DNA of 64,000 nucleotides from Actinomadura viridilutea. GTDB lineage: Bacteria > Actinomycetota > Actinomycetes > Streptosporangiales > Streptosporangiaceae. The DNA lies in NCBI GenBank assembly GCA_003001795.1, contig PVNI01000025.1:1-64000 (forward strand). The letters are read 5' to 3'. This document shows positions 5,906 to 57,397 of this stretch, piece after piece. Below the pieces are notes generated by a model. That model saw only the letters and a list, made by a program, of their open reading frames with translations, was not told the DNA's origin and did not search any database. A program made the position numbers and the translations under genes. How positions within the stretch are numbered: position 1 is the stretch's first letter; each line of letters begins with the position of its first letter.

Positions 5906-5965
5906 CGCACACCTCAAAGATCACCTGCCGTGCACCGCCCCACCCCGCGGACGGCGCGGCGGCCG

Positions 5966-6688
5966 TCAGCGCGGCGGCTCGACGCGGCGACCGCCCGCCG
6001 CCATCACGTCCGGCAGCGTCGGCGCCGCACCCGGATCACCGACCGGACCGCCCGGCGTCCCCGCCGCCTGCCCGGCCGCCCGCGTAGGGACCCCGGCGCC
6101 CAACAGCACCGCACCCGCCGCCACGCCCCGCAGCGCCGTCACCACCGGCGCCACCAGCCGCACCAACAGCAACGCCACCAGCGGCGCCACCACGACCCCC
6201 AGCACGAACCCCGCGGCCACGTCATGCGGGTAGTGCACCCCCACGAACACCCGCGAGAACGCCATCAGCGCCGCCAACGGCAGCACCACACCCGCCATCG
6301 ACCGCCACGCCACCACGATCACCGCGGCCGACGCCGCCGCGATCGTGGCGTGATTGCTGGGGAACGACCAGTCGCCCGGCGCCGGGCACGCCACGATGTT
6401 CATCGCCCCCGCCACCGCCCGGCAGGGCCGCTCCTCCCGCAGCGCGCTCTTGGACACCTCGCTGACCAGATAGGCCGCCACCACCGCCACCGGCGCCAGC
6501 AGCGCCAGACCCATCGCCCGGGCGTCGCCGGCACGGGCCCGCCACCAGCCCACCACGAACAACACGGCGAACACCAACAGGCCCGCGTCCGTGCCGATCT
6601 CGGCGAACGTGTGCACCCACGACGGCGTCCCATGGGCGAATTCCGTGATCTCGCGGTACAGGTCGGCGCTGAACTCAGGCGCGCGCAT
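5966..6688 (-). CDS. PAP2-family membrane phosphatase (undecaprenyl-diphosphatase-like)
   Basis: About 240 residues with several membrane helices and the three PAP2 signature motifs: KSALREERP (residues 80-88), PSNH (110-113) and SRVFVGVHYPHD (145-156), whose two His residues form the catalytic pair. Such enzymes dephosphorylate lipid pyrophosphates. By analogy with BcrC/YbjG this one may recycle undecaprenyl diphosphate on the outer face of the membrane. The start is taken at ATG 6688; a GTG at 6724 would add 12 residues. A DedA gene lies 128 bases upstream on the same strand. The Ala/Gly-rich C-terminal tail is dispensable-looking. Confidence 0.85.
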   Translation of the reverse strand: MRAPEFSADLYREITEFAHGTPSWVHTFAEIGTDAGLLVFAVLFVVGWWRARAGDARAMGLALLAPVAVVAAYLVSEVSKSALREERPCRAVAGAMNIVACPAPGDWSFPSNHATIAAASAAVIVVAWRSMAGVVLPLAALMAFSRVFVGVHYPHDVAAGFVLGVVVAPLVALLLVRLVAPVVTALRGVAAGAVLLGAGVPTRAAGQAAGTPGGPVGDPGAAPTLPDVMAAGGRRVEPPR

Positions 6689-10134: not shown

Positions 10135-12096
10135 ATGAGTGAGAAGCCGATCAGCAGGCGACGCATGCTGCAGGCCGGCGCGGTGGGAGGGATCAGCGTG
10201 TTGCTGCCCTCCCGCACGGCTCCGCGGAGCGGGATGAGGGCCGGCAGCGGCGGCCGGCTTGATCCTGCTGCGATCAGGAAGTACGCGGCCAGGCTGCCGA
10301 TACCGCCGGTGATGCCGCAGGACCCACGGGACGCGCACACCGACCTGGACTTCTACACGATCGGCGTCCGGCAGTTCAGACAGCAGGTGCTCCCCCCTGG
10401 CAGTCCGGCCACGACCGTGTGGGGGTACGGGTCTGCGCGCCATCCGGGCACCTTCCACTACCCCGCCTTCACCATCGAGGCGAAGGTCGATCGGCCTGTC
10501 CGGGTGAGATGGGTCAACGAACTGCTGGACGCCGAAGGCAGGTACCTTCCGCACCTGCTGCCGGTGGACCCCACGCTGCACTGGGCGAACCCGCCGGGAG
10601 GACGCTTGGGGCGGGACTCACGTCCCGAGTTCACCTCGACGCCCGGGCCGTACACGGGGCCGGTGCCGATCGTGACCCACCTGCACGGAGGGCTGAACAC
10701 TGAGGAAAGCGACGGCTACCCCGAGGCGTGGTACCTGCCCGACGCCCGCGACGTCCCCGCCTCCTACGCGCGGACCGGTTCCTTCTACGACAAGTTCAGA
10801 ATCAAAGCGGAAGCGCTGTCGGATGCGCGCTGGGGCCCCGGGGACGCGGTATTCCAGTACGCCAATGAAGGCCGGGCCTCCACGCTGTGGTACCACGACC
10901 ACTGCCTGGGCATCACGCGCCTCAACGTGTACGCCGGTCTCGCGGGCTTCTACCTCATGCGCGGTGGGCCGTCGGACGTGGAGGGGGACGCGCTTCCCGG
11001 GCCTGCCCCCAGAATGGGAGACCCGCCCGGTGCCCGGTACTACGAGATCCCCGTGGTGATCCAGGACCGGTCGTTCCATGCCGACGGCAGCCTGTTGTAT
11101 CCGGCGAGCCGGGCACGTTTCGACGGATTCAAGGGGCCATACATCCCCGCCAGCGACATACCGCCGATCTGGAACCCGGAGTTCTTCGGCGACACCATGC
11201 TGGCCAACGGCCGCACCTGGCCGGTGCTGCCGGTCGAGCCGCGCCGCTACCGGTTCCGGTTCCTCAACGGCTGCAATTCACGCACCTTGATCCTGAAGGT
11301 CGTCGCCGACCCGCTGGCGCGCAGGCCTGCGTCCCCCGCGCTGACACTGTGGCAGATCGGCAGCGATGGGGGCTTCTTGCAGGCCCCCGTCGAGCTCGGT
11401 CAACTGCTTGTCGCTCCGGCGGAACGCGTCGACGTCGTCGTCGACTTCACGGGGCTGCCGACCGGTGCCGAGCTGTATCTGATCAACGAGGGGCCCGACG
11501 ATCCGTTCCAGGGCGGCAGGGTGGGCGCCGATTTCTCGCCGGCGGATCCGAAGACCACTGGTCAGGTCATGAAATTCGTGGTGAGGCCGTTGACCGCGCC
11601 AGACCGGTCCACTCCCCCGTCCCAGCTCACGCTGCCCTCGTTCAAGCCCTTGGGCGGGGCGTTCCGCGCGCGGCGGTTGTCCCTCAACGAGGCGGACTCC
11701 CTCCGCCTGCCGGGTGTCGGCCCTCGCGTCACGCTCCTGGGCACCGTGGAGTCCGTCGGCAGGCCGGATCCGTTGGGATGGGACGCGCCCGTCACGGAAA
11801 ATCCCACGCTCGAATCGACCGAGATATGGGAGCTGTGGAACTTCACGGTGGACGCCCATCCGATTCACGTCCACGAGGTCCAGTTCCAGGTCGTCGACCG
11901 CAGGCGTTTCGGGGAGTTGCCTCGTCCGCCGGAGGTGTGGGAGCGCGGCTTCAAGGACACGGTGCTGGTGTATCCGAAGGCGATCACTCGTGTGAAGGTG
12001 CGATTCAGTCATGCGGGCCAGTACGTGTGGCACTGCCACATGTTGGAACACGAGGACAACGAGATGATGCGGCCGTTCACTGTCAGTCCGCGGTGA
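10135..12096 (+). CDS. Multicopper oxidase (bilirubin oxidase/CotA-like), Tat-exported
   Basis: A 653-residue secreted copper oxidase. The N-terminus has a twin-arginine signal (SRRRMLQAGAVGG) directing folded export. Copper ligand motifs occur in order: HLHGG at about residue 182, WYHDH at about 252, HPIHVH near 575, and HCHMLEHEDNEMM near 633, whose Cys-His couple forms the type 1/type 3 site. All four motifs are intact, so an active three-cupredoxin oxidase is expected, oxidising phenols, bilirubin-like compounds or metals with O2 as acceptor. The ATG at 10135 follows CTTGGGGG and leads directly into the Tat motif; the frame is open to 10018. The gene is monocistronic and is followed by a transposase remnant. 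Confidence 0.92.
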   Translation: MSEKPISRRRMLQAGAVGGISVLLPSRTAPRSGMRAGSGGRLDPAAIRKYAARLPIPPVMPQDPRDAHTDLDFYTIGVRQFRQQVLPPGSPATTVWGYGSARHPGTFHYPAFTIEAKVDRPVRVRWVNELLDAEGRYLPHLLPVDPTLHWANPPGGRLGRDSRPEFTSTPGPYTGPVPIVTHLHGGLNTEESDGYPEAWYLPDARDVPASYARTGSFYDKFRIKAEALSDARWGPGDAVFQYANEGRASTLWYHDHCLGITRLNVYAGLAGFYLMRGGPSDVEGDALPGPAPRMGDPPGARYYEIPVVIQDRSFHADGSLLYPASRARFDGFKGPYIPASDIPPIWNPEFFGDTMLANGRTWPVLPVEPRRYRFRFLNGCNSRTLILKVVADPLARRPASPALTLWQIGSDGGFLQAPVELGQLLVAPAERVDVVVDFTGLPTGAELYLINEGPDDPFQGGRVGADFSPADPKTTGQVMKFVVRPLTAPDRSTPPSQLTLPSFKPLGGAFRARRLSLNEADSLRLPGVGPRVTLLGTVESVGRPDPLGWDAPVTENPTLESTEIWELWNFTVDAHPIHVHEVQFQVVDRRRFGELPRPPEVWERGFKDTVLVYPKAITRVKVRFSHAGQYVWHCHMLEHEDNEMMRPFTVSPR

Positions 12097-34197: not shown

Positions 34198-35073
34198 TCA
34201 GTCGCCCCGGCGGAACTGGACGATCGCCCCGGTCATCAGGACCACGCCGATCAGCACGATCAGCACGACCTCCAACCACACCGGCACCAGCCACCCGTTC
34301 CAGGTGACCCCGGGATCGAACACCCGCCGCAGCTCCGGCGACACGTCCAGGTGGGAGAACACCGCGTGGCGCAGCGGGTCCACCGCATAGGTCAGCGGGT
34401 TGAACCGGGTCAGCACGCTCAGCCACGCCGGCAGGCCGTTCAGCGGGTACAGCGCGCCCGACAGGAACATCAGCGGCATGATGCCCACCTGCATGATCCC
34501 GAAGAAGGAGTGCACGCTGGTGATCCGCGCCGCCAGCAGCAGTCCGAACGCCGTCAAGGAGAACGCCGTCAGGAACATCAGCCCCAGCAGCTCGGCCAGC
34601 AGGACCGGGTCGTAGGGCACCCCCACCAACCCGGCCAGCGCCAGGATCAGCACGCTCTGCACGGTGGCGACCACGGAGCCGCCCAGGCACTTGCCGACCA
34701 CGATGGCGGTCCGGCTGACCGGTGCGACCAGCATCTCCCGCAGGAACCCGAACTCGCGGTCCCACACGATCGACCCGGCCGAGAACATCGCGGTGAACAT
34801 CACCGAGGTGGCGCACACGCCGGGGAAGATGAACGTCTTCAGGTCCACCTCGCCCGCCGGGCCCGGCCCGGACGTCATCAGCGTGGACAGGCCCGTGCCC
34901 ATGACCAGCAGCCACAGCAGCGGCTGCAGCAGATTGGCCACCAACCGCATCCGGTCCCGCCAGAACCAGATGAGCTCCCGGTGCAGGACGATCTTCACCG
35001 CCCGCAGGTCGTGCCGGACGCTGCGTTCGGGCACCCGCACCGCCTGAGGCGCCAGCGCGACGTCCATCGTCAT
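34198..35073 (-). CDS. ABC-2 type transporter permease (drug/daunorubicin resistance type)
   Basis: A 291-residue permease with six membrane helices and the ABC2 family core IVWDREFGFLREMLVAPVSR and FLSGALYPLNGLPAWLSVLTRFNPLTYAVDPLR. It pairs with the ATPase encoded just upstream, whose stop it overlaps by 4 bases (ATGA). DrrB-like exporters of this type extrude hydrophobic drugs or lipids. An ATG 6 bases downstream has better ribosome-site spacing and may be the actual start. Confidence 0.88.
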   Translation of the reverse strand: MTMDVALAPQAVRVPERSVRHDLRAVKIVLHRELIWFWRDRMRLVANLLQPLLWLLVMGTGLSTLMTSGPGPAGEVDLKTFIFPGVCATSVMFTAMFSAGSIVWDREFGFLREMLVAPVSRTAIVVGKCLGGSVVATVQSVLILALAGLVGVPYDPVLLAELLGLMFLTAFSLTAFGLLLAARITSVHSFFGIMQVGIMPLMFLSGALYPLNGLPAWLSVLTRFNPLTYAVDPLRHAVFSHLDVSPELRRVFDPGVTWNGWLVPVWLEVVLIVLIGVVLMTGAIVQFRRGD

Positions 35074-36050
35074 CTCCTCCCCCGCGCGACCAAGCGCATC
35101 CAGTCGGCCCCGGACGCCTCGGCGTCGCGGATCGTCTTCCCGGTGAACGACATGAACACATCGTCCAGCGACGGCCGCGACACGCTCACCGAGCGGATCG
35201 GCACGCCCAGCTCGGCGAACAGCCGCGGCACGAACTCCTCCCCCGCCGCCACCGCGAACGTCACCGCGCCTTCGGCGACCACCGCCTCCACGTCGAACCG
35301 CTCCTTCAGCGCCGTGATCGCCGCCCCGTCGTCGTCGGTGTGGATCTGCACCCGGTCCTTGCCCACGCCCGCTTTGAGCGCTTCGGGCGTGTCCAGCGCC
35401 ACGATCCGCCCCGCATCCATGATCGCGATGCGGTCGCAGTACTCCGCCTCGTCCATGTAGTGGGTCGTCAAGAAGATCGTGATCTGCTCGGCGTCGCGCA
35501 GCCGGCGGATGTAGTCCCAGATCGACGAGCGGGTCTGCGGATCCAGTCCGACCGTCGGCTCGTCGAGGAACAGCACCCGCGGCGAGTGCAGCAGTCCGCG
35601 GGCGATCTCCAGGCGGCGTTTCATGCCGCCCGAGTACGTCTGCGCCAGGTCGCCGCGCCGGTCCCACAGCCCGACCATCTCCAGCACCTGCCGCATCCGC
35701 TCGCGCGCCGCCGCGCGCGGCACCCCGTACAGCTCGGCGTGGAAGCGCAGGTTCTGCTCGCCGCTCAGATATCCGTCCAGGGTCGGGTCCTGGAAGACCA
35801 GCCCGATGTTGCGGCGCACCTGGTCGCGCTCGGCCACCACGTCGAACCCGGCGACCCGCGCCGTGCCCGCGGTGGGACGCAGGAGGGTGCACAGCATGTT
35901 GATCGTCGTGGACTTGCCGGCGCCGTTCGGGCCGAGGAACCCGAAGATCTCGCCGGGCCGGACGGCGAACTCGATCCCCCGTACGGCCTCGACGTCACCG
36001 AACCGCTTGACCAAGCCGTCGACCTCGACGGCCGACTCCCCGCTCGGCAT
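35070..36050 (-). CDS. ABC transporter ATP-binding protein (DrrA-type)
   Basis: A 326-residue ATPase with Walker A GPNGAGKST, a VFQDPTLDGYLSGEQNL Q-loop, signature YSGGMKRRLEIARGL, Walker B VLFLDEPTVGLD and H-loop LTTHYMDEAEYCDR. The DrrA-type C-terminal domain ends in RPSLDDVFMSFTGKTIRD. The ATG at 36050 follows GGGAGGC. It is divergent from a MarR gene, with a shared inverted repeat between them, suggesting MarR-controlled drug efflux. Confidence 0.92.
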   Translation of the reverse strand: MPSGESAVEVDGLVKRFGDVEAVRGIEFAVRPGEIFGFLGPNGAGKSTTINMLCTLLRPTAGTARVAGFDVVAERDQVRRNIGLVFQDPTLDGYLSGEQNLRFHAELYGVPRAAARERMRQVLEMVGLWDRRGDLAQTYSGGMKRRLEIARGLLHSPRVLFLDEPTVGLDPQTRSSIWDYIRRLRDAEQITIFLTTHYMDEAEYCDRIAIMDAGRIVALDTPEALKAGVGKDRVQIHTDDDGAAITALKERFDVEAVVAEGAVTFAVAAGEEFVPRLFAELGVPIRSVSVSRPSLDDVFMSFTGKTIRDAEASGADWMRLVARGRR

Positions 36051-36073
36051 GCGGGCCTCCCTTGACTCAATCG

Positions 36074-36104
36074 ATGGGACTGCCCAACCATAGGGATGTC
36101 CCAT
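36074..36104. promoter_or_regulatory. Inverted repeat ATGGGAC...GTCCCAT, likely MarR operator
   Basis: Seven-base arms (36074-36080 and 36098-36104) separated by 17 bases lie in the 97-base gap between the divergent efflux ATPase and MarR genes. The spacing suits a MarR dimer covering about 30 bp. Confidence 0.5.
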
Positions 36105-36856: not shown

Positions 36857-37856
36857 CTGACACCCTCGTCTCGGCAACGCCCCGGCACCCCTTCATGCGG
36901 ATCTTCATGCGGACATCGCCATGGTCGGCGCGGTCGTCGACGCCCCGGACTCCTGGATCGACCGGACCGCCGACCCCGACCGCTGGTGGCAGGCCGTCAA
37001 CGACGACCGGGCGATCGTCGCCCGGCTCCATGACGGTGCGGTCGATCTGGCCGACGAGACCGGCGCCGACCCGGCTGCCCTGCCCGCGTGCTCCTGCTCA
37101 GCCCCCGGCCTCGTCCACCACATGCTGGAACCGCTGCAGGCACACAGCAAGCACAAGGTGCTGGAGTTCGACGCCGGATGGACCGACGAGCCGCTGACCG
37201 CCCTCGGAACCAACGTCGTCACTATCGAGATCGACGCCGCCTGGCCGCCCAGGCACGCGCCGACCTCGCCTCCGCCGAACTGTCGCCGACAGTGCGCGTT
37301 GGAGACCGCGCCGACGACTGGAAGCCCACCGCCCCCTACGACCGGGGGCGCATCACCTGCGGCGTGACCGCCTTCCCCGACACCTGGGCGGAGCAGACCC
37401 GCGCCAGCGGCGTCATCGCCGCCGGGACCGCGTCCGGCCCGACCGGCGACCGGCGCGCCTTGATGCCGATGCGCGACCAGGCCCCGGCAGCAGCGCAGCC
37501 CACCGCACAGCCACGCGAAACGCGGACCTCCCTCGAGCCGCGCAAGCTCGCGGCGGGGCAGGACGGCCTGGCCGTGGCGATCGCTGAGCTGCTGCGGCGC
37601 GTCTCAGGCGGCTCCACCAACACAGACGGCATCTACCGGCTGGAGGCGCACAAGGACGCCTCATATGCCCCCAGCGTCGCCCGGCCGCCCCCCGGAGGGG
37701 CGAAGGTCAGCCGGAGCGGACCACACAACCTGCGGCACGAAAACACAACGGCCCACCACCGATGGATGGGCGTGAAGAGACCCGAACAAAGCCCACTTCG
37801 GCCTGTCGGTGACCCGCGCGGCACGCATGTGCGGTCCGACCGTCCCATCCATCGCT
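36857..37856 (+). pseudogene. Decayed PCMT-like methyltransferase
   Basis: Fragments of one protein-L-isoaspartate-methyltransferase-like protein are spread over three frames. They are VSATPRHPFM near 36867, then DRTADPDRWWQAVNDDRAIVARLHDGAVDLAD (36960-37060) and MLEPLQAHSKHKVLEFDAGWT (37120-37185). RADLASAELSPTVRVGD and VTAFPDTWAEQTR follow near 37260-37400, then SGPHNLRHENTTAHHRWMGVKRPEQS up to about 37800. The SAM motif (expected LEIGTGTG) is destroyed and several indels are needed to restore a frame. Order and spacing match the intact paralogue at 43814-44983. Confidence 0.7.
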
Positions 37857-37914
37857 GGTCTCTGCGGCGTCACACCTCCCGGTGCATCACCCGAGCTTGA
37901 GAGAAGGGACCAAG

Positions 37915-38825: not shown

Positions 38826-39677
38826 TTGCGCGCCTCGGGACGCCGCCCCGCTTGGAGCTCACCGCTCATCACCCCCGCCGACTGGAACTGGCCTGTCCAC
38901 GACGGCATGAACGTGCTGGAGATCGGCACCGGCACCGGGTACACCGCCGCGCCGCTGTGCGAACGGCTCGGCTCGCAGCACGTCAGCACCGTCGACATCG
39001 ACCCGGAGCTGACCGAGGCCGCCCGGCGCCGCCTCGCCGACGCCGGCTACCGGCCCGCCGTCATCACCGGCGACGGGCTGCTCGGGGACCCCGCCCACGC
39101 CCCGTTCGACCGGGTTCTGGCGACCGTGGCGACCGAACGCGTGCCGTATGCGTGGGTGGAGCAGACCCGCGTGGGCGGGGTGATCCTGGCCGACGTCCGG
39201 CCCCGCGGCATGACCTGGGCCGGGGCGCTCGCCCGCCTCACCGTCACCGGGGACGGGACCGCCGGCGGGCCGTTGATCCCGGCGACGTGGGGGTTCATGT
39301 CGACGCGCCGGGAGGTGGACCGGCCCGGCATTCCCGAGGCCGCGCCCATCGACACGTCGGTCGTGCGCACCCGCACCAGCCCGGTCGGCGGCGCCGCCCT
39401 GCGCACCCCCGGCCTGTCCCTGCTGATCTGGCAGCGCCTGCCCGGCATCACCGTGTTCCCCCGCCCGGACGGCGCCCAGATCGTCACCCCGGACGCCTCC
39501 TGGGCCACCGTCACCACCACAGCCCCCGCCACGGTCGAGCACGGCGGCCCGACCGACCTCTGGCAGCAGGTCGAAGAAGCCCACGCATGGTGGACTGCAC
39601 ACAACGCCCCAGGCGGAGAGGCCTTGCCTGCGCTGACCCAGCGACTTCACCACCAGACACCAGACGGGAAGCCCTGA
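38826..39677 (+). pseudogene. N-terminally truncated PCMT-like methyltransferase
   Basis: The frame carries a clear PCMT Rossmann core: MNVLEIGTGTGYTAAPL, VSTVDIDPELTEAARRRL, ITGDGLLGDP and FDRVLATVATERVPYAWVEQTRVGGVIL. A long C-terminal domain like that of the 43814-44983 protein follows. It lacks the ~100-residue N-terminal part that holds the substrate-binding S-x-S-Q-P segment; the 25 codons before MNVLEIG are not conserved. If expressed, translation would start at ATG 38907 (256 residues). Probably non-functional. Confidence 0.65.
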
Positions 39678-40676: not shown

Positions 40677-41921
40677 TTATTGTTCACCCTCTACCTGTTT
40701 GATACGTTCGACTACCCGAGGGTCAGACGCAACTTCTGATGGCAACTTGGTTGTCACACCTGGCCGCGCCGCTACTACTTGCTTTACCGTAAGCCAACGC
40801 ACTCGACTCAGGTCCGCATCCTTGAGGTTTGCGCCTGTCAGGTCCGTATCTTCCAGCGAGGAACTGCGCAAGTTCGCACCTTTCAGGTTGGCGTGGCGCA
40901 GACATGCGCTCTCCAGCCAGGATTCACGCAAGTCTACGTTTTGGAGATTGGCATTACTCAAGTCCGCAAATTCCATAAAGGCGTTACTCAGGTCCGCACC
41001 ACGCAGATTAGCGCCACACAGCTTGGCACGTGCCAGCATGGCGCCACCCAGGATTGCGTTCATTAGTTTGGCGTTACGCAGGTCTGCACTTATCAGCCTG
41101 GCCTCAATCAGGATCGCTTCCACCAGTACGGCGTTACTCAGATTCACCCCTAGCAGAACAGCGTCAATCAGGTTCGCGCCTTCCAAATCGGCACCACTCA
41201 GGTCCGCGTCGTCCAGAGTGGCGTCACGGAGGTCTGCATACCACAGACTTGCGCCACTCAGCTTGGCGCCTTCCAAAACGGCGTCACGCATGTCAGCGTT
41301 GTCAAGTCTGGCGCCGGCCAGATACCTATAGCTCAGGTCTAGGGGCGCCGCAATGCGGTCGACGTGTCGACGCGAGGCGGTTCGGGTGAGTGCGGTGAGC
41401 GCAGCCTGCACGTCGGCTTCCGGCTCGTCTGACAGAGACTGGCGACGTTCACGGGAGGCCTCGTCAGAACTGCGGCAATCCGGGGCGCGATCCCGGACGA
41501 ACGCGACGAGAACTTGGGTGGCGTGGGTGGCCTGGTCGGGCGCATCCTGCACAATCTGCTCAAGGGCTAGGACCCCACCATAGCGAACATACATCTCCGA
41601 CGATCCCAAGCGCTCCAGGGCTTTGATAAACCGGTCCGTAACCTGACCTCGACGGGAGAGCCGATAGTTGCGCCAGGTGAACCAGAGCGCGACCACGCCA
41701 CCCAACCCGAGCAGGAGCTGGGTGACGGCATGGCGAAAACTGGCGATCAGCGGCCCAACCGTCGACTGGTTGTCGACCCCCTTGAGATACTTGCCGTCAA
41801 ACCACCAGGGGCCCCGCCATAGCAGCAGAACCACCCCGGTGCCAACGAGTAGCACGAGAACCACAAACGTCATGTTCGACAGCCATCCCCGCAGGGAACG
41901 GCCAGACTTCATGTTCGGCAT
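40677..41921 (-). CDS. Pentapeptide-repeat membrane protein, copy 1
   Basis: A 414-residue protein. Two membrane helices occupy the N-terminal part (FVVLVLLVGTGVVLLLW, ~18-34, and LLLGLGGVVALWFTW, ~70-84). A cytoplasmic helical region follows, with RFIKALERLGSSEMYVRYGGVLALEQI. About 34 pentapeptide repeats of A(D/N)LxX type run from ~195 to 365, as in ADLSGADLEGANL and SNANLQNVDL, and should form a right-handed quadrilateral beta-helix. The C-terminal tail is charged. Function is unknown; some pentapeptide proteins mimic DNA or bind gyrase, but membrane-anchored actinobacterial ones are uncharacterised. The start is ATG 41921; an ATG three codons on is possible. Confidence 0.85.
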   Translation of the reverse strand: MPNMKSGRSLRGWLSNMTFVVLVLLVGTGVVLLLWRGPWWFDGKYLKGVDNQSTVGPLIASFRHAVTQLLLGLGGVVALWFTWRNYRLSRRGQVTDRFIKALERLGSSEMYVRYGGVLALEQIVQDAPDQATHATQVLVAFVRDRAPDCRSSDEASRERRQSLSDEPEADVQAALTALTRTASRRHVDRIAAPLDLSYRYLAGARLDNADMRDAVLEGAKLSGASLWYADLRDATLDDADLSGADLEGANLIDAVLLGVNLSNAVLVEAILIEARLISADLRNAKLMNAILGGAMLARAKLCGANLRGADLSNAFMEFADLSNANLQNVDLRESWLESACLRHANLKGANLRSSSLEDTDLTGANLKDADLSRVRWLTVKQVVAARPGVTTKLPSEVASDPRVVERIKQVEGEQ

Positions 41922-42257: not shown

Positions 42258-43460
42258 TTATTTTTCACCTTCTACCTGTTTTATACGTTCGACCACCCGA
42301 GGGTCAGACGCAACTTCTGATGGCAACTTGGTCGTCACCCCTGGCCGTGCCGCTACTACTTGTTCTACCGTGAGCCAACGCACCCGACTCAAGTCCGCAT
42401 CCTTGATTTTCGCGCCAGCCAGATTCGCATCTTTCAGATTGGCGTCACGCAAATCTGCGCACATCAGATTGGCGTCACGCAAATCTGCGCACATCAGGTC
42501 AGCGCCATACAAGTCCGCGTGTATCAAATTGGCACCCGACAGCCTTGCACCACGCAGCTTGGCACCACCCACTGCAGCCATGACCATAATCGCGTCTACT
42601 AGGACGGCTTTACGCAGATCTGCGCCTATCAGACTGGCCTCAATCAGGACCGCTTCTGGGAGTGCAGCGTTACTCAGGTTTGCACATCGCAAATTTCCCT
42701 TATACAAGAGCGCACCATTTAGACGAGCGTAACTCAGGTCCGCGTCTTTCAGAATAGCCTCACGCAAGTCTGCGTACCATAGAGTGGCGCCACTGAGGTT
42801 TGCGCCTTCCAAAATGGCGTCACGCACGTCGGCGCCACGCAGACTAGCGCCCGCCAGATGCCTATAGCTGAGATCTAGGGGCGCCGCAGTGCGGTCGACG
42901 TGTCGACGCGAGGCGGTTCGGGTGAGTGCGGTGAGCGCAGCCTGCACGTCGGCTTCCGGCTCGTACGGCAGGGGCGGGCGGCGCTCAAGAGAGGGCTCCT
43001 GGTCGGGGCGGCGGCAATTGGGGGCGCGGTCCCGGACGAACACGACGAGGACCTGGGTGGCGTGGGTGGCCTGGTCGGGCGCATCCTGCACAATCTGCTC
43101 AAGGGCTAGGACCCCACCATAGCGAACATACATCTCCGACGATCCCAAGCGCTCCAGGGCTTTGATAAACCGGTCCGTAACCTGACCTCGACGGGAGAGC
43201 CGATAGTTGCGCCAGGTGAACCAGAGCGCGACCACGCCACCCAACCCGAGCAGGAGCTGAGTTACAGAGGCGCGGAAGCTGCTGATCATATGCCCGGCCG
43301 CAGACTTGTAGTCAGCTCCTTCGAGGTATTTGCCGTCAAACCACCATGGCCCCCGCCATAGCAGCAGAACCACCCCGCTGCCAACCAGCAGCATGAGAAC
43401 CGCGAACACCATGTTCGGCAGCCACCGCCGGGAGGGCTGGTTCGACTTCGGTTTCCGCAT
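42258..43460 (-). CDS. Pentapeptide-repeat membrane protein, copy 2
   Basis: A 400-residue paralogue of the neighbouring gene. It has the same two N-terminal membrane helices, an identical RNYRLSRRGQVTDRFIKAL linker and near-identical last 50 residues (SRVRWLTVEQVVAARPGV). The pentapeptide core has diverged and includes an exact internal duplication (DLMCADLRDAN twice, near residues 325-345). It is 14 residues shorter than copy 1. The ATG at 43460 aligns with the copy 1 start; the frame is open farther upstream. Function unknown. Confidence 0.85.
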   Translation of the reverse strand: MRKPKSNQPSRRWLPNMVFAVLMLLVGSGVVLLLWRGPWWFDGKYLEGADYKSAAGHMISSFRASVTQLLLGLGGVVALWFTWRNYRLSRRGQVTDRFIKALERLGSSEMYVRYGGVLALEQIVQDAPDQATHATQVLVVFVRDRAPNCRRPDQEPSLERRPPLPYEPEADVQAALTALTRTASRRHVDRTAAPLDLSYRHLAGASLRGADVRDAILEGANLSGATLWYADLREAILKDADLSYARLNGALLYKGNLRCANLSNAALPEAVLIEASLIGADLRKAVLVDAIMVMAAVGGAKLRGARLSGANLIHADLYGADLMCADLRDANLMCADLRDANLKDANLAGAKIKDADLSRVRWLTVEQVVAARPGVTTKLPSEVASDPRVVERIKQVEGEK

Positions 43461-43813
43461 GTTTGCATCACAGCGCAATCCGCTACGTTGCGGTACTGAT
43501 GGGCGCAGTGTGCATGTCCGGAACTGGCATATCGGATCGACCGCGTGGGGGCAGCTCGGTAGGTGCGGACAGGTCTCTACAATTCCCGCCCACAATCCGG
43601 TTGGCGGTCAACGGTGTATCTCTGCAGGCCAGAGGCGAGTTGCCTGGCTGCAGAACTGGACGGCCAACTGCACGATCGGGCGGATCAGCCTTGCTTACGT
43701 TGTTGGCGGTGCGAGGCGGACACACACCCGGTGGGCAACTGTTGGACAAACGTGTAAGGTGACGGTACCGATCGTGACAACAAATGGCTCGGTTGCGGGC
43801 GGTAGAAGAAGGG
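43461..43813. other. Interval upstream of pentapeptide copy 2
   Basis: No supported gene on either strand; the first ~85 bases repeat the upstream flank of copy 1. Confidence 0.5.
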
Positions 43814-44983
43814 TCAGGCGGGCAGCGGTCGGCACGGTCCTGAGGGCGTGTCCAGCCACACGGTGTGCCGCCCGTCCGCATGGACGGTGACCCCGTGACG
43901 GGTGAAGGCGGGGCGGCCCAGACGTGTCCACTCCTCGTACGCGGCTGCGACCTCGTCGAACAGGCGCCGCGGCCCGAACTGTTCGACATGGTGGACGGTG
44001 CCGCCCTCATAGTCGACCGACGCCCACGATCGTTCCGCGGCGTCGGCGTCGACGTGCACGAGCCAGACGGTGAACTCCTCTGACCCGTCGGGTGCGTCGA
44101 AACGGTGCCAGGACACTCCCGGCACCCGTATGGCGACCGCGAAGTCGACGTCCGGCTGCCCGAACATGTCGCGCGGGTCGACGCGGGTGGTGGACGTGTC
44201 GGGGATGTCGCCGGTATGGACGTAGTCGCGCAGCGTGCCGAGCAGCACCCGGTCGTGACGGAGCCACATGAACGGGGCGCGGCCAGTGAACGGTCCTGTG
44301 GCGGTTCCGTCGCCGTTCACCGTGAGGCGCAGCAGGGCGTCGTTGTGGTAGGCGTTGCCCCAAGGCGTGAGGATGACGCCGCCCGGCCGGGTCTGCTCGA
44401 TCCAGGCGCGGGGGATCCGTCGCGTGGCCGCGGTGGCGATGATCCGGTCGTAGGGGGCGTGCGGCGGGTACCCGGCGGTGCCGTCGCCGGTGATGACCGG
44501 CACCGGACGTCCCACGCGAACCAGCGCCTCACGAGCGCGGCCCGCGAGCTGCGGGTCGACCTCTACGGTGGTGACGTTGTCGACACCGAGCCGCGCCGCG
44601 AGGAGCGCGGCGTTGTAGCCGGTTCCGGTGCCGATCTCCAGCACGCGCATGCCGGGTTCGACCTGCAGTTGGTCGAGCATGGCCAGCACGAGGCTGGGTT
44701 GGCTGGCGCTGCTGGTGGAGTATTCGCCGTGGTCCGGGTCAGCGGGGTGACCGTCATCGACCTGCGTCACGACGTATCCGTCGGCGTTGACGAGCCGTGA
44801 CCAGGTGTCGGGGTCGGCGGTCCGGGACAGGCGCCGCCAGCCGCCGGCGGTCTCCACCCAGATGTCGTCGGGGATGAACGCGTGCCGCGGCGTGTCGTGG
44901 AACGCGTCCCGCCACGCCGGAGGCAGCGCACCGGCCGCGTCGAGTCGGGCGAACAGGTCGCCGAGGGCCGGTTGGACGGTCAC
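43814..44983 (-). CDS. PCMT-like O-methyltransferase with C-terminal extension (candidate RiPP-modifying enzyme)
   Basis: A 389-residue relative of protein-L-isoaspartate O-methyltransferase. The N-terminus has FHDTPRHAFIPDDIW (28-42). A TSSASQPSLV segment at 90-99 corresponds to the PCMT active-site loop. SAM motif I is VLEIGTGTGYN (114-124), followed by TTVEVDPQLAGRAREAL and ITGDG. PYDRIIATAATRRIPRAWIEQTRPGGVIL is typical of the family. The C-terminal ~170 residues form an extra domain absent from housekeeping PCMT. The GTG start follows AAGGAG, which lies inside the tail of the 34-codon peptide gene; only 3 bases separate the two. Arrangement and extension resemble enzymes that form aspartimide in actinobacterial peptides. 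Confidence 0.88.
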   Translation of the reverse strand: MTVQPALGDLFARLDAAGALPPAWRDAFHDTPRHAFIPDDIWVETAGGWRRLSRTADPDTWSRLVNADGYVVTQVDDGHPADPDHGEYSTSSASQPSLVLAMLDQLQVEPGMRVLEIGTGTGYNAALLAARLGVDNVTTVEVDPQLAGRAREALVRVGRPVPVITGDGTAGYPPHAPYDRIIATAATRRIPRAWIEQTRPGGVILTPWGNAYHNDALLRLTVNGDGTATGPFTGRAPFMWLRHDRVLLGTLRDYVHTGDIPDTSTTRVDPRDMFGQPDVDFAVAIRVPGVSWHRFDAPDGSEEFTVWLVHVDADAAERSWASVDYEGGTVHHVEQFGPRRLFDEVAAAYEEWTRLGRPAFTRHGVTVHADGRHTVWLDTPSGPCRPLPA

Positions 44984-44986
44984 GCT

Positions 44987-45091
44987 TCACTTCTCCTTGC
45001 CGGATCCGTGTTGGGAGCCGGACGTGCCGTCCGACTGCTGCTTGGTCAACTTCCCGTCCTTCGGGTTGGCCGAGTCGCCGTGCTTCCCCAT
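44987..45091 (-). CDS. 34-residue peptide, putative RiPP precursor for the adjacent PCMT
   Basis: A complete small ORF with a strong ribosome site (GGAGGTGAG, ATG 45091) and a TGA 3 bases before the methyltransferase start. It encodes MGKHGDSANPKDGK followed by LTKQQSDGTSG and a Gly/Ser/His/Lys-rich tail. It is hydrophilic, has no Cys or aromatic residue, and contains two Asp-Gly pairs, the sequence most prone to aspartimide formation after Asp methylation. No signal peptide. Function as a substrate is inferred from linkage and composition. Confidence 0.65.
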   Translation of the reverse strand: MGKHGDSANPKDGKLTKQQSDGTSGSQHGSGKEK

Positions 45092-45827
45092 ATCTCACCT
45101 CCGTGCACGGAAAGCTACCCACGGTTGAAGATCGTTGGTGTGCGGTGCGGTGAATGAGGGGGTTGCGGGCAGGGCAGCCCGACCTCACAGTTGCGTCGCC
45201 GTCTCTCCTGCCCGAGACGACTTTCGAACGCCGATGTGCATCGGCGTACCGGCCCCGCGGTTCCACATGGCTTCCGTGCCGACAACCGTGACGATGACGG
45301 CCCTTCAAGGTCTCTCTCGGACTTCAGTCCGTCGTCAGCTGCAGGCGTCGGGCAGCCAAGTCGATGACCTGCAGCAGTCGGCAAGGCGGGTGAGCGCGAC
45401 GTCGGCCAGCACCCGGAGCACGGCCAGGCAGGCGGCGCATGTCGATGGTTTCCCTGGGAAAGGAGTTCGACCAGTTCGCCGTTCTCTGTGCGTCCGAATG
45501 GACGCCTGTGTTCTACGTGCTCCTTCAAGCCACTGGACCGCCCGCATGCTTTGAACGCCATCGAGGCGGACGGCTGTTGCACGTCGATGCCGCGAGGCCG
45601 ACGGGCGGCCTCTAATCAACCGGTATCGGCTCCACTACCGCTCGACTGCGTAGGTACACCGCGGCTTCGGCGCCGGACCCTCTTGGGGCGCCGGTCCGGC
45701 GTCGCGCTGCGGCCCCGCGTCGGCACGGTCCCCGATCGCGTGCCGCGAAGATGGGCCTTGAGAACGGGACGACGGCACGCTTGGGGGAGCGTAGCCCGGT
45801 GGGCGGGCGTGGACGTTGGTGGGCGGG
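45092..45827. other. 736-bp interval without an intact gene
   Basis: No intact gene is supported. The upstream end holds the promoter of the peptide-PCMT pair; a decayed coding remnant lies at 45324-45440. The rest shows no clear structure. Confidence 0.5.
45324..45440 (-). pseudogene. Decayed C-terminal coding remnant
   Basis: On the minus strand STCAACLAVLRVLADVALTRLAD reads in one frame. One frameshift later the DNA reads LQVIDLAARRLQLTTD and a stop at 45324. Together they look like the tail of a small helical protein. I do not recognise the family; the evidence is residue pattern only. Confidence 0.25.
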
Positions 45828-55814: not shown

Positions 55815-57206
55815 TCACACGCCGGCCTCCGCCAGGCTCATCCGGACCTGCCCCACCCGCACCTTCCGCAGGTAGCAGAACCAGGTCAGCGCGACGCACA
55901 CCCCGTAGAACGCGGCCAGGCTCACCAGCGCCGGCGCGATCCCCCGGGTCTGCTCGATGGAGATCCGGAAGGTCTGCTGGATCAGCACGCCGCCGACGGC
56001 GCCCACCGCCGAGATGAGGCCGATGGCGGCCGCCGAGGCGCGCCGGGCGCGGGCGAGCGCCCGCTCGGCGGCCGCGGAGTCGCCGCGGTCCGCCTCGGCC
56101 AGCTCCCGCACCCGGAAGATCGCCGGGATCATCCGGTAGGTGGAGCCGTTGCCGACGCCGGTGGCGACGAACACGAACAGGAACGCCGCCAGGAACGTCG
56201 GCCAGCTCCCCGCCCGCACCGCCGCGGCCACCGCCGCGACGCCCAGCCCCATCAGCAGGAAGTCGACCATGGTGACCCGGGCCCCGCCGAACCGGTCCGC
56301 CAGCCAGCCGCCGAGGGGGCGCGCCAGCGACCCGGCGAAGGCGCCCAGCCAGACGAAGCGGGACGCGGCGACGTCGGGGAACGAGTTCTCGATCAGCACC
56401 CCGAAGCTGAACGAGTAGCCGATGAACGACCCGAAGGTGCCGATGTACAGCACCGACATGACGATCGTCTGCCCGTCCCTGGCGCCGGCGGCCATCTCGC
56501 GCGGCGTGTACGGCGAGGACGCCCGGGTCAGGTTGTCCATGAAGAAGTAGGCGCACGCGGCGGCCAGCAGGATGAACGGCATCCACACCCAGCCCACCGC
56601 GGCCAGCCCGAACGCGACGATCAGCGGGGGCATGGCGAGCTGGGTCACGCTGGTGCCCAGGTTGCCGCCGGCGGCGTTCAGGCCGAGCGGCAGGCCCTGC
56701 CGCCGGGCCGGGTAGAAGTGGGTGATGTTGGCCATGGAGGAGGCGAAGTTGCCGCCTCCCAGGCCGGTGGTCGCCGCGATCAGCAGCAGCGCCCAGAACG
56801 GCAGGTCGGGGTTCTCGATCGCGTAGACGAACAGCCCGCACGGGACGAGCAGCAGCAGCGCGCTGACCACCGTCCAGTTGCGGCCGCCGAAACGCGCCGG
56901 GGCGAAGGTGTAGGGGATGCGCATCGCGGCCCCCACCAGGTTGGGCAGCGTCGTCAGCCACAGGGCCTGGCCCACCGACAGGCGCACCCCGTTGTCGGCG
57001 AGGTGGAGCACGGCGATGCTCCACAGCAGCCACACGCAGAAGCCCAGATGCTCGGTGAAGATCGAGAACACCAGGTTGCGGGCCGCCACCCGGCGCCCGG
57101 TCGCGGCCCAGAACCGGTCGTCGTCGGGGTCCCAGTGGTCGATCCAGCGACCGCCCCGGGGCCTGGCCCCCGCCCGCGGGGCTGCGTCGTCGGTCAGCGC
57201 CGTCAT
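55815..57206 (-). CDS. narK: Nitrate/nitrite transporter, MFS (NarK family)
   Basis: A 463-residue major facilitator with 12 membrane helices. NarK-type features are AMRIPYTFAPARFGGRNWT in the first half, with the nitrate-binding Arg. The nitrate signatures are GLGGGNFASSMANITHFYP and FVFVATGVGNGSTYRMIPAIF, two Gly-rich helices. A short hydrophilic loop (ELAEADRGDSAAAERAL) lies between late helices. It imports nitrate and/or exports nitrite. The ATG at 57206 follows AAGGAG. It lies near the nitrate-reduction genes on the same strand. Confidence 0.93.
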   Translation of the reverse strand: MTALTDDAAPRAGARPRGGRWIDHWDPDDDRFWAATGRRVAARNLVFSIFTEHLGFCVWLLWSIAVLHLADNGVRLSVGQALWLTTLPNLVGAAMRIPYTFAPARFGGRNWTVVSALLLLVPCGLFVYAIENPDLPFWALLLIAATTGLGGGNFASSMANITHFYPARRQGLPLGLNAAGGNLGTSVTQLAMPPLIVAFGLAAVGWVWMPFILLAAACAYFFMDNLTRASSPYTPREMAAGARDGQTIVMSVLYIGTFGSFIGYSFSFGVLIENSFPDVAASRFVWLGAFAGSLARPLGGWLADRFGGARVTMVDFLLMGLGVAAVAAAVRAGSWPTFLAAFLFVFVATGVGNGSTYRMIPAIFRVRELAEADRGDSAAAERALARARRASAAAIGLISAVGAVGGVLIQQTFRISIEQTRGIAPALVSLAAFYGVCVALTWFCYLRKVRVGQVRMSLAEAGV

Positions 57207-57397
57207 GGCGTCTCCTTCGGTGTCATGGCGGCCGGCGGCGATGCCGGGCGTTCCTGCGGACACCGCGACGTTAGGGACGGCGGGTTACGCGGGACGGCGC
57301 GTCATGTGCCCGTGGTGCTACATCCGGCGCACACGCACGGCGCCGCCGTGTGAGAGAAGGGGCGCGCCCCTCGCCGGTGAAACGCCTGCTCAGCGGC

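Follow-up and report, generated by a model that had tools for sequence, protein, structure and literature searches.

A two-gene locus of Actinomadura viridilutea pairing a conserved Asp-Gly peptide with a long-form PCMT homologue: a probable imiditide system

In a 64,000-nucleotide stretch of Actinomadura viridilutea DNA (the window), an open reading frame of 34 codons lies immediately upstream of a gene for a PCMT-family methyltransferase, and this raises the question of whether the small frame is a gene and, if so, whether its product is the substrate of the adjoining enzyme and at which residue. An earlier note on this DNA had read the pair as a candidate aspartimide RiPP locus with the two-gene organization of imiditides. 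Imiditides and pamtides, described as first reported in 2023, are defined in published accounts by a precursor together with a PIMT homologue (PMC13001092, PMC10787088). We conclude that the locus is very probably a two-gene imiditide (type I pamtide) system, in which the two genes would be translationally coupled and Asp21 of the peptide methylated and converted to an aspartimide. The assignment is made because the precursor is conserved, the enzyme is a long-form PCMT with a C-terminal domain of the RiPP-associated type, no other RiPP enzyme was found in the ORFs examined around it, and the enzyme takes a fitting place in the tree of its family.

The peptide gene and its conservation

The features of the locus are collected in Table 1. 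The product of the small gene, MGKHGDSANPKDGKLTKQQSDGTSGSQHGSGKEK, has 34 residues, is free of Cys and contains two Asp-Gly pairs; its composition is 20.6% Gly, 8.8% Asp and 2.9% Pro (one Pro in 34 residues), and it matches no family in NCBIfam or Pfam. Only AGC separates the stop codon TGA (44989-44987) from the GTG start of the enzyme gene (44983-44981), and in the nearest relative within the genus, Actinomadura sp. NBRC 104425 (G027), peptide stop and enzyme start overlap as GTGA. From this tight spacing and the ribosome site internal to the peptide gene, the enzyme gene is probably translationally coupled to the peptide gene. The earlier note had described a tiny gene with a strong ribosome site of its own, ending three bases short of the GTG start of an intact PCMT relative whose ribosome site falls in the last peptide codons, and a Cys-free product with two Asp-Gly pairs; all of this reads the same here, the 389-aa enzyme ORF being uninterrupted.

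Table 1. Features of the two-gene locus in window coordinates.
Feature	Position	Strand	Basis
Precursor peptide gene, ATG to TGA, LTKQQSDG subfamily	44987..45091	-	ORF, orthologues, selection, ORF-internal conservation
Shine-Dalgarno GGAGG of the peptide gene, 6 nt 5' of ATG	45098..45102	-	Sequence
AAGGAG within the last peptide codons, 9 nt 5' of the enzyme GTG	44993..44998	-	Sequence
Codons of Asp21-Gly22, predicted aspartimide site	45026..45031	-	Alignment of 17 precursors; G348, left out, has Asn
Codons of conserved C-terminal HGSGKEK, predicted enzyme-recognition end	44990..45010	-	Alignment; analogy with SpaA
389-aa PCMT-family methyltransferase with C-terminal domain and WTRLGRP; predicted peptide L-aspartyl O-methyltransferase	43814..44983	-	Pfam, NCBIfam, model, tree

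Comparison among genomes indicates that the 34-codon ORF is a real gene, since its profile matches in the order all stand upstream of methyltransferase homologues, its dN/dS lies between 0.21 and 0.53, and it is more conserved than the sequence upstream of it. In NBRC 104425, where the enzyme is 66-67% identical, a 34-aa peptide occupies the same position and is 79% identical to that of the window. A search with the single peptide matched two of 65 genomes of the genus, and a profile of two rows (the window and nearest-relative peptides), run against 345 genomes of the order, matched six with E values no higher than 0.01, all six directly upstream of a methyltransferase homologue; the pairing in the window and its nearest relative was known before the profile search, and the other four matches adjoin methyltransferase homologues of 46-66% identity. 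Nucleotide identity to three relatives is 0.82, 0.75 and 0.71 inside the ORF. Over the 100 nt preceding it the values are, in the same order, 0.58, 0.57 and 0.54, and over the 100 nt following it 0.72, 0.55 and 0.60. Peptide dN/dS ranges from 0.21 to 0.53 over six pairs, values that are rough for sequences so short, and the reading frame, for which a lack of conservation had been named as evidence against the proposal, is conserved. Among 394 sampled genomes of the class the profile gave, besides the window, only two weak matches (L197, L198), which we rejected as chance matches, both having in-frame stops and no methyltransferase homologue in the surrounding stretch.

The methyltransferase, its neighbors and its relatives

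The enzyme matches PF01135 (PCMT) at 7.2e-32, and among NCBIfam models TIGR04188 (ATP-grasp peptide maturase system methyltransferase) scores best, with 335.8 bits, below the cut-off of 380; the scores for canonical PIMT models also lie under their cut-offs, with 102.7 bits for TIGR00080 against a curated equivalog cut-off of 159.05. An AlphaFold model (mean pLDDT 94.5) comprises a PIMT domain and a C-terminal domain. With a peptide-enzyme fusion model as query, the top Foldseek match is the Thermotoga maritima PIMT (PDB 1DL5; E 6.8e-20), and VIA-align superimposes on it 310 residues of the fusion model, within the range 42-415 (Z 26.2, rmsd 6.8, 21-22% identity), the longest alignment obtained, others listed covering at most 221 residues. 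The two-domain arrangement is thus shared with the T. maritima enzyme, and the additional C-terminal domain, of more than 100 residues, accords with the long form that had been assigned to this PCMT relative. The C-terminal WTRLGRP at 352-358 fits WXXXGXP, a motif that a 2026 review attributes to the enzymes of lassimiditides, graspimiditides and imiditides and describes as common to most RiPP-associated enzymes, the extra domain likewise being common to these and absent from E. coli Pcm (PMC13001092). In 48 sequences W352 and P358 are invariant, and the Gly is present in fewer than 90%.

Of 23 neighboring ORFs examined at 27.4-57.3 kb (with Pfam, and some also with NCBIfam), a subset of the ORFs there of which some overlap and some are not real genes, none matched an ATP-grasp, LanB/C or lasso enzyme, and no exporter, protease or other RiPP enzyme tied to the pair was found in them. 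With the Cys-free precursor, this agrees with the lack of lanthipeptide and graspetide features remarked on earlier, and leaves a short precursor beside a PIMT homologue as the sole RiPP components recognized among the ORFs examined. A DrrA-type ABC ATPase is encoded at 35070-36104 and an MFS transporter at 55815-57263. When the window ORFs at 34-56 kb were compared with stretches of 11-19.5 kb from four relatives, PCMT-type homologues were in common, and the sole further matches were to S-adenosyl methyltransferase (PF04672), in two of the four relatives and at differing distances; with shared neighbors so sparse, we claim no larger conserved cluster.

Other features of the window lie close to the pair. 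At 38826-39677 (+) is a methyltransferase remnant of the same family without roughly its first 90-100 residues (TIGR04188, 233.7 bits), and at 37088-37900 (+) a short fragment of that family (55.2 bits); both look like decayed copies. Pentapeptide-repeat proteins adjoin the locus at 42258-43595 (-) and 40677-41921 (-), and the first of them has, as judged by eye, a membrane-spanning-looking stretch before the repeats. Elsewhere in the same genome, two methyltransferase copies that closely resemble each other (L086 and L087, contigs C18 and C45) lie near contig ends, with no precursor seen.

At E up to 1e-80, methyltransferases were found in 78 of the 345 genomes, at 114 loci. Five of these enzymes are 61-100% identical to that of the window, the next best being at 53-54%, and each of the five has a QQS(D/N)G-type peptide upstream. 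A fixed rule identified a candidate precursor at the expected place in 88 of the 114 loci, against 107 of 2280 triplet-shuffled controls; an earlier rule gave 35 of 74 loci, from which 5 partial loci and 11 duplicates had been dropped beforehand, against 60 of 1480 controls. Both rules were set after examples had been viewed, and the counts include spurious matches (such as L061 among the 35; L109, L112, L157 and L190 among the 88) and miss precursors visible by eye (for example L015, L016, L102 and L123). Among the 26 loci without a candidate by rule there are accordingly cases in which a precursor can be recognized by eye and cases in which there is none. Methyltransferase homologues without a visible small ORF, which the earlier note had reckoned would speak against the pairing, occur at identities of about 47% and lower, but there are none among the closest five; the pamtide paper itself counts 3653 of 9408 enzymes as without any precursor clue (PMC10787088).

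The closest five are not all in the same state. In G348, whose methyltransferase is 67% identical to that of the window, the precursor reads QQSNG and has no recognizable start codon; the remnant (L194, about 10380-10485) retains HGSGKEK and lacks a recognizable MGKH end. The G027 enzyme leaves frame near its C-terminus and then returns (L031, about 5965-6100), which would mean a disrupted gene or else a fault in the assembly. Three of the five closest pairs are therefore plainly intact. A pattern search found no clear ribosome site for the G117 peptide.

In a quick tree of 66 methyltransferases, picked by us from those fetched and with precursor types labeled by eye, the five enzymes with QQS(D/N)G peptides fall into a single clade (SH-aLRT 99), and the clades around it have precursors of the MGKH...DGxW, MGKH...DGHKP, poly-Pro...PDG and Cys types. 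Precursor types change 12 times on this tree against a minimum of 10, and none of 200 shuffles was as low. Its position makes the window locus one branch of a large precursor-linked methyltransferase family such as the pamtide paper and the review describe (PMC10787088, PMC13001092), and, together with the six-of-six pairing of precursor and PCMT homologue, bears out the proposed two-gene imiditide organization. Small ORFs of Cys type (CxxCxG-like, and so resembling cysimiditides) precede related methyltransferases in Actinomadura and beyond it (L020, L022, L023, L040, L053).

Three other explanations of the pair have to be weighed. The small ORF might be a regulatory upstream ORF that sets the translation of a repair methyltransferase, its own product being functionless, as the tight spacing and the enzyme ribosome site inside the last peptide codons would allow; we hold this to be highly improbable, given the conservation at the amino-acid level expressed in the dN/dS values, the retention of the Asp-Gly core and the C-terminus even though the junctions differ (TGA-AGC-GTG in the window, GTGA in G027), and the way in which precursor types track enzyme clades. 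It is extremely unlikely that the enzyme is a canonical isoaspartyl repair methyltransferase with the peptide as an unrelated neighbor. Its catalytic domain is indeed a plain PIMT fold, but it has an extra domain that E. coli Pcm lacks and a WXXXGXP motif typical of RiPP-associated enzymes (PMC13001092), all six peptide matches lie beside the enzyme, and up to 28 enzyme matches occur per genome in the genus. Since the T. maritima PIMT also has an extra domain and WXXXG, domain and motif alone are no proof.

There is equally a very slight chance that the enzyme serves for tailoring in a graspetide or lanthipeptide locus whose cyclase is found elsewhere. Its best NCBIfam match is to the methyltransferase of an ATP-grasp peptide maturase system, but the score lies under the cut-off of that model, the precursor is Cys-free, and the 23 ORFs examined at 27.4-57.3 kb include no cyclase. 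The two-gene imiditide reading is therefore the one that we carry forward.

The predicted aspartimide site and proposed mechanism

Which Asp would be modified was judged from an alignment of 17 precursors, consisting of the window branch and the HGGGGEK branch and leaving out the G348 remnant, in which G2, D12, D21, H28 and G29 are invariant as aligned. The residue after D21 is Gly in 14 and Ser in three, whereas D12 is followed by Gly in only three of the 17; in the closest relatives the first Asp-Gly (KDGK) reads EDGK, KDDK, SDDR or TTGK. The second Asp-Gly alone is thus largely conserved as such, and D21, in QQSDG, is the predicted aspartimide site, in agreement with the conserved Asp close to a conserved Gly or Pro of type I precursors. 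Both Asp-Gly pairs had originally been offered as aspartimide contexts, and of these QQSDG is favored over PKDGK.

It is unlikely that within the same system Asp12 is modified instead of Asp21, or that both are. Asp12 is as invariant as Asp21 in the alignment and in the window precedes Gly, but a Gly or Ser follows D21 in all 17 precursors, and the longest invariant block of the four closest, LTKQQSDG, contains D21. The G348 remnant has no Asp at aligned position 12, yet it has Asn at 21 and the copy looks decayed. With D21 as the preferred site, D12 is predicted to be a recognition residue or a structural leftover.

The HGSGK end may serve in enzyme recognition, as it corresponds in place to the C-terminal residues of SpaA; alanine replacement of the last five SpaA residues is reported to have abolished modification (PMC13001092), and is elsewhere termed 'deleterious' (PMC10787088). 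In an AlphaFold model of an in-frame read-through fusion of peptide and enzyme, the peptide stays disordered (pLDDT below 50 over residues 1-36), and a docked Asp was not placed.

By analogy with NmaM and SpaM as regards the post-translational steps, the system would operate as follows. The precursor would be translated first and the coupled enzyme gene thereafter, and the SAM-dependent methyltransferase would bind the linear, cationic peptide through its C-terminal domain and methylate the side-chain carboxylate of Asp21, as characterized homologues suggest. The amide nitrogen of Gly22 would then attack the ester with departure of methanol, to give an aspartimide with a net change of -18 Da that may persist or slowly hydrolyze to isoAsp and Asp.

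Comparison with known systems and Asn-Gly relatives

The locus resembles the imiditides or type I pamtides NmaA-NmaM of Nonomuraea maritima and SpaA-SpaM of Streptomyces sparsogenes in consisting of two genes only, in having a short, Cys-free precursor rich in Gly, Lys and Asp with a conserved Asp and a charged C-terminus, and in its long-form PIMT homologue with WXXXGXP. Unlike NmaA and SpaA, its subfamily has its own core, LTKQQSDG, and end, HGSGK, and the predicted site is Asp-Gly rather than the Asp-His described for NmaA. The peptide is also shorter than type I precursors, at 34 residues against about 45, and poorer in Pro, at 2.9% against about 16.8%, the published type I values (Gly 17.3%, Pro 16.8%, Asp 10.2%) being averages and no entry rule (PMC10787088); its Gly and Asp contents agree with these averages. 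Counting against the type I assignment are the low Pro content, the TIGR04188 score under its cut-off, the defects of the G348 and G027 pairs, the G117 peptide with no clear ribosome site, the peptide left unplaced in the AlphaFold fusion and the 26 loci without a candidate precursor. The locus looks like a member of a proline-poor subfamily (LTKQQSDG...HGSGK) of a known class and not of a new class, which corrects the earlier suggestion of a new precursor type.

With the cysimiditides or type II pamtides (FcaA, TceA*, NalA) the locus shares a precursor and PIMT homologue, and its predicted Asp21 has the Ser-Asp-Gly context of the modified Asp of FcaA (ITVTSDGK; PMC10787088). The tetracysteine zinc motif of those peptides, with its two CXXCXGXG motifs, is absent, and the two Cys-type loci in the tree form a clade separate from that of the window. 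Graspetide-associated PAMTs (TIGR04188; AmdM, SsfM) are homologous and are expected to catalyze the same reaction, but are distinguished by scores above the family cut-off and an ATP-grasp enzyme in the locus, neither of which is seen among the examined neighbors or for the window enzyme. Canonical PIMTs differ in scoring above their own cut-offs without a C-terminal extension, and the T. maritima PIMT, whose motif is WXXXG (PMC13001092), does not have the full WXXXGXP of the window enzyme. The locus is, on this well-supported reading, a fairly ordinary imiditide or type I pamtide subfamily with a corrected site prediction. The subfamily that it adds is compact, with a core that hardly varies and a candidate site narrowed to one residue, and is suited to tests of how the enzyme reads a linear, proline-poor substrate.

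A search of the 345 genomes with a single related precursor as query gave 41 matches in 38 genomes, of which 30 were fetched as loci and 23 were readable by pattern. Eleven of the 23 (L199-L209, at about 1501 from one end), all of the genus Actinomadura, follow the pattern [MV]G[KR]H.DPA.KNGHKPD.P.PPP...GKRGK, with Asn-Gly in EKNGHKPD or GKNGHKPD, and each of the eleven precedes a methyltransferase homologue; in the remaining 12 that position is Asp (such as SDGHKP, GDSHQP or GDAHRP). Deamidation of Asn-Gly yields the same succinimide without methylation. Deamidation is also covered in the introduction of the review, which calls linking aspartimidylated RiPPs to biological function the bigger challenge (PMC13001092).

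These eleven precursors, with the QQSNG of the decayed-looking G348 copy, are the grounds for a speculative and rather doubtful reading in which the physiological state is a succinimide/isoAsp equilibrium, entered either by Asp-Gly methylation or by Asn-Gly deamidation. If so, some of the methyltransferases would sustain the cycling of a ring that already exists instead of initiating it, and the peptides would act as chemical timers within the cell and not as antibiotics for export. The Asn that a related group naturally carries in place of Asp gives a genetic means of asking which of the two, ring or methylation, is decisive. As a further lead, the modified residue of the Asn-Gly clade may alternatively be the Asp of PDKP.
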